A stretch of 54,673 nucleotides of DNA from Sphaerobacteraceae bacterium (GTDB lineage Bacteria > Chloroflexota > Chloroflexia > Thermomicrobiales > UBA6265), in the NCBI GenBank assembly GCA_016781925.1, contig JADDPH010000093.1:1-54673 (forward strand), given 5' to 3'. The position numbers and the translations under genes were made by a program. Each line of letters begins with the position of its first letter. Within the stretch, counting starts at the first letter, position 1. The notes under the pieces were generated by a model. The model saw nothing but the letters and a program-made list of their open reading frames with translations. It had not been told where the DNA came from and ran no database searches. Of the stretch, positions 10,453 to 52,061 are shown one piece after another.

Positions 10453-11378
10453 CCTGCGAGGACCAGACGGCGCGGTTCGACAGTGAAGGTGACCGGCGTG
10501 CGGCCGACGACCTCCCCGTCGAGTTGAACGAGCGCCGGTTGGGAGGGGGGACCTTCGACCCGAATGGAGCGGACCTTCGCCGTCGTAAACTTTGGGTGGC
10601 CAAGGTGGGTGCCGCGGTAGACCTTCGGCACATTGCGGAGGAGGTCCGCTTTGGAGAGGTCACCGAGGATCGCCAGGTCGAGCAAGCCGTCCTCGGGGTC
10701 CGCCATCGGAGCGATAAGCATCCCGCCGCCGAAGTAGCGACCGTTCGCCGCGAGGACTGAGCAGACGGGTCCTGTCAGGCAACAAACATCCGCGACCACG
10801 GAGACCTCGATATTGCGGTATTGAGCGAGGGAAGCGCCGACGCTGGCGAGGTACGCGAGGGTTGCTCCGGGCAGCCGGGATTGAGCCGCCCGCTGCGCCA
10901 CGACGGCGTCGAATCCGAGACCGGCCACGTTGACGAAAGCGCGAGATGAGCCATCATCGAAGGTGGCTCGTCCGATGTCGACCCCGCGGCGTCGCCCACC
11001 GATCAGTCGCTCCAACGTCAGCTCTGTTCCGTCACCACGACCGGTACTGCGCGCGAAGTCGCTTCCTCGACCGGCCGGGAGGACTCCCAGGGCGGTATTA
11101 CTGCCATCGTCCAGGAGGCCATTGGCCACCTCATTGACCGTGCCATCGCCCCCAACCGCGATCACCAAATGGTAACCACGATCGGCAAACACGCGCGCTA
11201 CTGACGTGGCCTCTCCTGGTGCGGCGGTGACGTGGACATGGTGGAGGCAGCGCAGGCGGGACAGCGTGGCCACGATCAGAGGGAGCTGGGTCAAGGCTCG
11301 GCCGCTCCCAGCCGTGGGGTTAAGGATCACGCCGATCCGATGCTCGCCCTCGCGGGAACGGGAGCCGGAAGCCATCAC
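10449..11378 (-). CDS. Diacylglycerol kinase / YegS-type lipid kinase family protein
   Basis: ILNPTAGSGRA, VAVGGDGTVNEVANGLL, PAGRGSDFARS. Confidence 0.9.
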   Translation of the reverse strand: MMASGSRSREGEHRIGVILNPTAGSGRALTQLPLIVATLSRLRCLHHVHVTAAPGEATSVARVFADRGYHLVIAVGGDGTVNEVANGLLDDGSNTALGVLPAGRGSDFARSTGRGDGTELTLERLIGGRRRGVDIGRATFDDGSSRAFVNVAGLGFDAVVAQRAAQSRLPGATLAYLASVGASLAQYRNIEVSVVADVCCLTGPVCSVLAANGRYFGGGMLIAPMADPEDGLLDLAILGDLSKADLLRNVPKVYRGTHLGHPKFTTAKVRSIRVEGPPSQPALVQLDGEVVGRTPVTFTVEPRRLVLAG

Positions 11379-12424
11379 TCGACGAGGACGCCCACGCCGG
11401 GCACGATGTCACCGATCTCCCACAGTGGAAGATCGACCGCGGCAAATGCGGAGCGCAGTGCAGCGCTCCGCTCGACCGGCACGGTCAGGAGCAGGCCGCC
11501 GGAGGTCTCGGGGTCGTAGAGGAGGGCGTTCAAGTCCGCGCCGACGCTTGGCAGAACCGTCACTGCGCCGCCCGTCTCTACCCCGAAATGGGTCCGATTG
11601 CGCTGCATCCCACCCGGTAGATGTCCTGCGGCGGCACTTTCTACAGCGCCCGGCAGGAGAGGCACAGCCGCCGCCTGAATACGAAGGCGAACGCCGCTCT
11701 TCGCGGCCACCTCGGAGGCGTGGCCCAGCAGACCGAACCCGGTAATGTCGGTGCAAGCGTTGATGCCGACCTGGCGCACCGCCTCACTCGCCGCCAGGTT
11801 GAGGGTCAGCATCGACTCAATCGCCGCCGCCGCGTGCTCCGGAGCCGCCGCGCCGTTTTTCATTGCGGTGGTGATCGCACCAGTGCCCAGCGGTTTGGTG
11901 AGGAAGAGCGCATCCCCTTCCTTCGCCCCGGCCTTCGTCAAAATCTGATCGGGGTGGATGGAACCGGTCACGCAGAGGCCGTACTTGGGCTCGGGGTCAG
12001 TGACCGTATGGCCCCCGGCAATGATGCCGCCGGCCTCGCCGACCTTGCTGGCGCCGCCCTCGAAGATCGCCGAGAGAATCTCGCCCGGCAGATCGGACGG
12101 GAACGCCGCGATGTTCAGCGCGAGCAGCACCTCCCCGCCCATGGCGTAGACATCGCTCATGCTGTTGGCGGCGGCAATAGCTCCGTACGTAAACGGGTCA
12201 TCGACGACGGGGGGGAAAAAGTCCACGGTTTGGATGATCGCGCGGTCGGCGGACAGCCGGAAGACGGCCGCGTCATCACTGGTCTGCAGGCCGACCAGGA
12301 GATCCGGATGGGTGTGGGGCGTCAAGGGGCGCAGCACCTGCGCCAGGGCCGCGGGGCCCATCTTGGACGCTCAGCCGGCGCTCCGGGCCAGCGTGGTGAG
12401 GCGAATCTCGTCCCTCGTTTGCAC
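11375..12424 (-). CDS. selD: Selenide, water dikinase, probable selenoprotein with TGA(Sec) at 12371-12373
   Basis: Provided ORF (11375-12361) starts after TGA; upstream in frame: GTG(12424) QTRDEIRLTTLARSAG-TGA-ASKMGPAALAQVL, matching SelD N-terminal LT...GAG(C/U).(A/C)K. RBS-like AAGGA before GTG. Confidence 0.88.
12328..12344 (-). promoter_or_regulatory. Candidate bacterial SECIS hairpin downstream of SelD TGA
   Basis: GGCGCAG-GTG-CTGCGCC perfect 7-bp stem; apical loop starts with G, 33 nt after the TGA. Confidence 0.65.
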
Positions 12425-12629
12425 GGCCGTTCCTTCTGGTCCATCGATCCACCGCCCGCGGCGCCCCGGGCAAGGTACCATCGGTCGATAGTAGGCGCCG
12501 ACTTGCAGGACGTCAAACTGAGTCGCGGCCGCCTCGTGGTGTCTGTCTCGGCAAAGAAGGATAACGAAGGCGGCACATGGGAGCACGGTTGCTCCAAGTG
12601 GCGCGACGCCGCAAGGCAGGGAGGACTCG

Positions 12630-13469
12630 ATGGTCGGTCCAGGGCTCACCACCGACGACGTCATGACAGTCGCGCTGGAGATGGCTGGGATGCAGCGGAT
12701 CCCCGACGATAGCGCGATCTACGTCGCGGGACAGGGTCTGCGGCGGGTGCTGATGGGGGTTGACATCGGCGCGGCGGAATTGCTCCTAGCCCGCCAACTC
12801 GGCGTGGACGGGGTGATCGCGCACCACCCGGCCGGTAGCACGGCGACCCTGCGATTTCCGAGGGTGCTCGGTCGACAGGTTGAATTCATGGTTGAGGCAG
12901 GAGTCCCGGCCGAAGAAGCTCGGAATGTCGTTCAGCCGGCGATCTCCCGCGGGATGTTGCGCGCCCAGGCGGCCAACTTCGACCACACCCCTTCGGCGGC
13001 ACGACTCCTCGGGATGCCGTTCCTCAACGTTCATCTACCGTTGGACGAGGTCGGACGCCGGATCATGGTCGAGGCAATCGAGCGTCACACGGAAAGCCTT
13101 GGGCGGGAGCCGACGGTGGCCGACATCGTGGACGCTCTCAGCACCATCCCGGAAATTCGGGATGCACCAACCGGGGTGATGGTTCCCGTCGGCCGGCTGG
13201 ACCGTCCCGCTGGCCGGGTCGTCGTCTTCCACGGCGCCGGGACGAATGGCGGGTTTCCGGTGGCTCAAGCCCTGGCCAGGGCCGGCGTGGGCACCGTCAT
13301 CTATATCCATGTCGCCGCCGAGGAAGCCGATCGCCTGCGCGCTCTAAAGCTCGACACGTTCAGCCTGGTCGTCTCCGGGCACATTGCCTCCGATCTGATC
13401 GGTATCAACCTCTTCGTCGCTGAGCTCGAGCGGCGGGGGGTCGAAGTCATCCGGATGAGCGGGCTGTAG
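12630..13469 (+). CDS. NIF3-like (YbgI/DUF34 family) protein
   Basis: GVDIGAAELLLARQLGVDGVIAHHPAG, MPFLNVHLPLDEVG, VSGHIASDLIGINLFV metal-ligand-like motifs. Confidence 0.7.
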   Translation: MVGPGLTTDDVMTVALEMAGMQRIPDDSAIYVAGQGLRRVLMGVDIGAAELLLARQLGVDGVIAHHPAGSTATLRFPRVLGRQVEFMVEAGVPAEEARNVVQPAISRGMLRAQAANFDHTPSAARLLGMPFLNVHLPLDEVGRRIMVEAIERHTESLGREPTVADIVDALSTIPEIRDAPTGVMVPVGRLDRPAGRVVVFHGAGTNGGFPVAQALARAGVGTVIYIHVAAEEADRLRALKLDTFSLVVSGHIASDLIGINLFVAELERRGVEVIRMSGL

Positions 13470-51839: not shown

Positions 51840-52020
51840 TCTCTCTGTGAGACATTGAGCGGGCAACGACCATTGAACCGTCTCTGGCTGGGAACGCAAA
51901 ACGCCCCGGGCCGGTGTCGACCCAGGGCGTTACACAAGGCAGGAGTTGCCTGGTGTTGCTCCTCGGGCCTCGGTCGGGAATTAAGCGGCGAGCCGCACCG
52001 ACGGTCTTCGGCCTATTGCG
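51840..52020 (-). ncRNA. L10 leader (rplJL autoregulatory leader)
   Basis: Minus strand CCGAAGACCGTCGG...CTTAATTCCCGACCGAGG core, followed by ACGCCCTGGG...CCCGGGGCGTTTTG attenuator-like hairpin before rplJ. Confidence 0.8.
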
Positions 52021-52061
52021 CGTTGTATTGTCACCCGCCGGGGGTTTCCCGTCGGGCGAAC

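Follow-up and report, generated by a model that had tools for sequence, protein, structure and literature searches.

Does the TGA triplet that interrupts a selD-like reading frame in a Sphaerobacteraceae bacterium mark a broken or misannotated gene, or does it encode selenocysteine (Sec) at the catalytic position of selenophosphate synthetase? The frame lies in a window of 54,673 nucleotides (the whole stretch of DNA that was analysed, contig JADDPH010000093.1). Among prokaryotic selenoproteins, only one is more widespread than Sec-containing SelD (PMC13188914, PMC1794560, PMC4561486), and in a reference set of prokaryotes about 19% of the SelD genes carry Sec, always at this position (PMC4561486). 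We consider it very probable (about 97%) that the gene is selD and that its product is itself a selenoprotein, where both Sec insertion and enzyme activity are predicted from the sequence.

Gene structure and the catalytic position

Mechanical ORF calling splits selD at the TGA 12371-12373, so that one ORF (12371-12664) stops there and a second one (11375-12361) starts late. The first-pass annotation had described this split, had claimed that the second ORF lacks the conserved N-terminus of SelD, and had quoted the codons that precede it. Indeed, the minus strand from 12424 to 12359 reads, letter for letter as quoted, GTG CAA ACG AGG GAC GAG ATT CGC CTC ACC ACG CTG GCC CGG AGC GCC GGC TGA GCG TCC AAG ATG, and the ORF listing contains the separate ORF that ends at the same TGA. 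When the TGA is read as Sec, a frame of 349 residues results, with U as residue 18 and a second TGA as terminator (Table 1). The read-through protein matches the selD family TIGR00476 with 359.6 bits (curated cut-off 125 bits) over profile positions 1-309 of 311, and this full-length match, which extends upstream of ATG 12361, bears out that the called ORF begins too late. That an internal TGA truncates SelD under standard gene callers is already known; here, the uncorrected call would leave an enzyme central to selenium metabolism without its active site.

Table 1. Features of the selD locus (window coordinates) and formate dehydrogenase (FDH) genes of the same genome G000 (contig coordinates).
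Feature	Location	Strand	Remarks
Predicted selD CDS, GTG start to terminal TGA, internal TGA as Sec	11375..12424	-	349 aa, Sec18; read-through protein compared with TIGR00476
TGA at the catalytic Cys/Sec position, predicted Sec codon	12371..12373	-	alignment; 38 TGA and 4 TGC in the order
GTG start codon	12422..12424	-	homologues also begin (M/V)-(Q/H)-(T/S)-R-D-E-I
Shine-Dalgarno-like AGAAGGA, 6 nt 5' of GTG	12431..12437	-	read from the sequence
ATG of mechanical gene calling, internal Met and not the real start	12359..12361	-	Leu frequent in homologues
Putative bacterial SECIS hairpin GGCGCAG-GUG-CUGCGCC	12328..12344	-	stem 7 bp; loop 3 nt, first bases GU; UGA-to-loop distance 33 nt
FDH alpha L101, in-frame TGA in QARI-U-HSS	C52:6778-9398	-	likely selenoprotein
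FDH alpha L102, in-frame TGA in QARI-U-HSS	C51:19057-22809	+	likely selenoprotein

Comparison with solved structures places the TGA precisely. The protein matches E. coli SelD (3u0o, E 8e-77), to which it is homologous over its residues 4-345, and Aquifex SelD (2yye, E 2e-58). In both alignments the TGA is matched to the Cys within the AGC/SGC motif, i.e. to the catalytic Cys of the two enzymes, which upholds the earlier proposal that it occupies the Cys/Sec position of the Gly-rich segment. The catalytic loop G-U-A-S-K is aligned with GCGCK of E. coli, and the conserved Lys follows three residues after U. Where E. coli SelD is a Cys17 form, the window protein would carry Sec. Furthermore, Ser takes the place of Cys19, the other loop Cys of the E. 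coli enzyme, which implies that the loop of the window SelD has a single redox residue; in Sec-SelD of relatives, Ala, Ser and Gly are frequent in this second-Cys column.

Conservation of the TGA codon among homologues

Among 61 genomes of the order, 42 contain a SelD gene that covers the site. The catalytic codon is TGA in 38 of these and TGC in the other four (genomes G054, G046, G051 and G037), with no other residue found. A broader sample of 80 SelD loci drawn from many phyla (Chloroflexota, Clostridia, Acidobacteriota, Photobacterium and others) contains 70 genes with TGA, nine with Cys and one that is truncated. Pairs of U and C are found in relatives at exactly this codon. On a tree of the U/C states (56 rows), which is itself weakly supported, six changes are needed.

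These counts bear on the view that the TGA arose by a sequencing error, or by a recent nonsense mutation of a Cys codon that turned selD into a pseudogene. Such an origin would suit a metagenome-style draft assembly and a triplet that is one base away from TGC and TGT, and an error for one of these codons had been named at the outset as the result that would overturn the selenoprotein reading. However, 38 genomes of the order, each assembled separately, share this TGA, as do 70 of the 80 loci across phyla, and the remaining selD frame is intact and under constraint. We regard an error or pseudogene as exceedingly improbable.

The homologues also speak to the true start of the gene. According to the mechanical call, translation would begin at ATG 12361, the frame upstream of it would be due to chance, and the resulting short SelD would lack the N-terminal catalytic loop. 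Yet in the 38 TGA genes the residues R, R, L and T at positions -14, -10, -9 and -8 are invariant with 4-6 synonymous codons. As the amino acids of the upstream segment, RDEIRLTTLA, are conserved while their codons vary, this segment is coding. Moreover, the Met at ATG 12361 is Leu in many relatives, and the segment that would be lost holds the catalytic residue. A late start is thus highly improbable; indeed, the TGA/Cys pattern of the homologues rules out both this start and a sequencing error, and SelD with an internal Sec codon stays the preferred reading.

A putative SECIS hairpin downstream of UGA

If the UGA is decoded as Sec, a bacterial SECIS (bSECIS) element is expected 3' of it. The published model allows loops of 3-9 nt and stems of 4-16 bp, sets the UGA-to-loop distance at 16-37 nt, and requires a G within the first two positions of the loop, with G or U as the usual next base (PMC13188914). 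The hairpin listed in Table 1 lies within every one of these limits: its loop has G then U, its stem comprises 7 bp, and its UGA-to-loop distance of 33 nt is near the upper limit. The selenoprotein reading is thereby strengthened. Folded alone, the hairpin reaches -11.3 kcal/mol.

Folded by itself, the window segment forms a strong structure, though one that does not surpass its shuffles (z -0.71), and covariation in a 60-nt alignment is small because the primary sequence is nearly fixed. In the homologue alignment, 90% of the cells are paired for a six-pair stem, compared with 8-67% when the partners are slid. Since the lone fold is unexceptional, we relied on codon constraint and on the comparison with the Cys forms.

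Codon usage provides the strongest evidence for the hairpin. Its codons CTG GCG CAG GTN CTG (+9 to +13) fall within the most synonymously constrained region of selD, and the lowest entropies of any five-codon windows are reached between codons +7 and +15. Among conserved residues of the 38 TGA genes, Ala +10 has the lowest codon entropy gene-wide (first of 13 columns, GCG in 36/38). Leu +13 and Leu +9 rank first and second of 11 columns (CTG in 35/38 and 34/38, respectively), and Gln +11 ranks first of two (CAG in 36/37). These four codons make up the stem; at Val +12, in the loop, the third codon base is free to vary. Furthermore, the hairpin motif is gone in all four TGC homologues. The set of 38 Sec and four Cys forms, with the hairpin lost in each of the latter, also offers clean data on the relaxation of SECIS after replacement of Sec by Cys, a principle that is established already.

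One genome of the order, G008, departs from this picture: its SelD gene (L054, 1938-1997, minus strand) has the TGA and lacks the near-invariant CAG-GTN-CTG hairpin. This might mean that, in this order, the UGA can persist after the SECIS of SelD has disappeared or shifted, a relocated or divergent SECIS being used by the same SelB, which we think rather unlikely.

Sec machinery and other probable selenoprotein genes

A selenoprotein reading implies a functional SelA/SelB/tRNA-Sec system elsewhere in the genome, as the first-pass annotation had stated. This held for the two proteins, with the tRNA gene not found in an incomplete assembly. The genome (G000) is a metagenome-assembled genome of 2.23 Mb in 132 contigs and is 82% complete. 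It contains selA (C55:71649-72986, 510 bits) and selB (C8:6397-7476, 319 bits), both above cut-off and confirmed as whole proteins. The gene selC was not found in this 82%-complete assembly, where a covariance model and a search with a sibling's sequence returned tRNA-Ser, other tRNAs and short chance matches. The flanks of the sibling's selC have no syntenic place in the assembly, so that the missing gene is not assignable to a contig gap. A stretch of about 110 nt near the sibling's selC (L088:1049-1159) matches G000 at C112:4238-4347 and C127:48836-48935 with 78-79% identity.

Given the completeness of 82%, we take the absence of selC as weak counter-evidence. The congeneric genome G056 has a tRNA-Sec (66 bits) with TCA anticodon, and strong selC matches occur in 34 of the 61 genomes of the order. 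Of the 38 genomes with TGA-SelD, 36 have selA, 37 selB (counting a partial gene in G056) and 28 a strong selC; selA or selB is present in every one. The window organism presumably has a tRNA-Sec as well.

The own genome also has two TGA-interrupted formate dehydrogenase alpha genes, L101 and L102, which are likely selenoproteins (Table 1). In an alignment of L101, its TGA falls on the Sec position of selenocysteine-containing FDHs of known structure. Each of the two TGAs is followed by a hairpin with a GGUC-type loop, at a shorter spacing than in selD and with a stem sequence unlike that of the selD hairpin. A third FDH-like protein, L100 (on C55), has no TGA.

With these genes in hand, two other ways of reading the UGA can be weighed. 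In the first, the organism would lack selC, as its assembly does, and insert Cys or a near-cognate residue at UGA, giving a functional Cys-SelD. Against this stand the incompleteness of the assembly and the selC of a genome of the same genus, the retention of selA, selB and two TGA-containing FDH genes, and the constraint on the SECIS-like hairpin, which together make it a very slim prospect. In the second, the genetic code would be altered and TGA read as an ordinary amino acid such as Trp or Gly. An in-frame TGA that is read through would fit such a code, but selD itself terminates in TGA, and homologues without TGA have Cys at the site rather than Trp or Gly. The genome also encodes SelA and SelB, and the other TGA-interrupted genes examined are only the FDHs, whose TGA occupies the known Sec position. 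An altered code therefore deserves next to no credence.

Decoding of UGA as selenocysteine remains the preferred reading, and the SelD finding indicates that the window lineage decodes it in this way. The proposal that SelD is a selenoprotein is supported by the TGA/TGC exchange, the alignment with the catalytic Cys, the constrained hairpin, selA, selB and the two TGA-FDHs, from which Sec insertion is inferred. No selenouridine synthase (YbbB) turned up in the own genome, which suggests that SelD works for the Sec trait; the caveat here is that the assembly is 82% complete. In the Cys-SelD genome G046 (SelD locus L049), which is 78% complete, none of selA, selB and selC was found; possibly, the Sec trait was lost there and SelD kept for another use.

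Proposed mechanism and relation to known Sec-SelD

We propose the following sequence of events. Translation would start at GTG 12424. When the ribosome reaches the UGA (12373-12371), SelB with Sec-tRNA(Sec) would bind the hairpin 33 nt downstream, and selenocysteine would be inserted as residue 18 of SelD. Sec18 is predicted to lie in a flexible N-terminal loop and is thought to handle selenide during the ATP-dependent formation of selenophosphate. Selenophosphate would then supply SelA for the synthesis of Sec-tRNA(Sec), which would make SelD partly dependent on its own product.

This arrangement agrees with the Sec-SelD, or SPS2, of Clostridia, Deltaproteobacteria and Pasteurellales in having a full-length SelD with UGA at the same codon (PMC1794560, PMC4561486). 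The downstream bSECIS and the presence of SelA and SelB in the genome are likewise shared, and there is no essential difference. Exchange of Sec and Cys in SelD, and SECIS remnants after conversion to Cys, were also described earlier (PMC1794560). As such, the window selD, with its presumed Sec, is a solid but ordinary new example of a well-documented and common selenoprotein.

Other features of the window

The gene divergent from selD (window 12630-13469, plus strand) has no NCBIfam match; its product may be a NIF3-type protein. At window 51887-52029 (minus strand), a ribosomal protein L10 leader (Rfam RF00557) was detected with 45.5 bits, just above cut-off.
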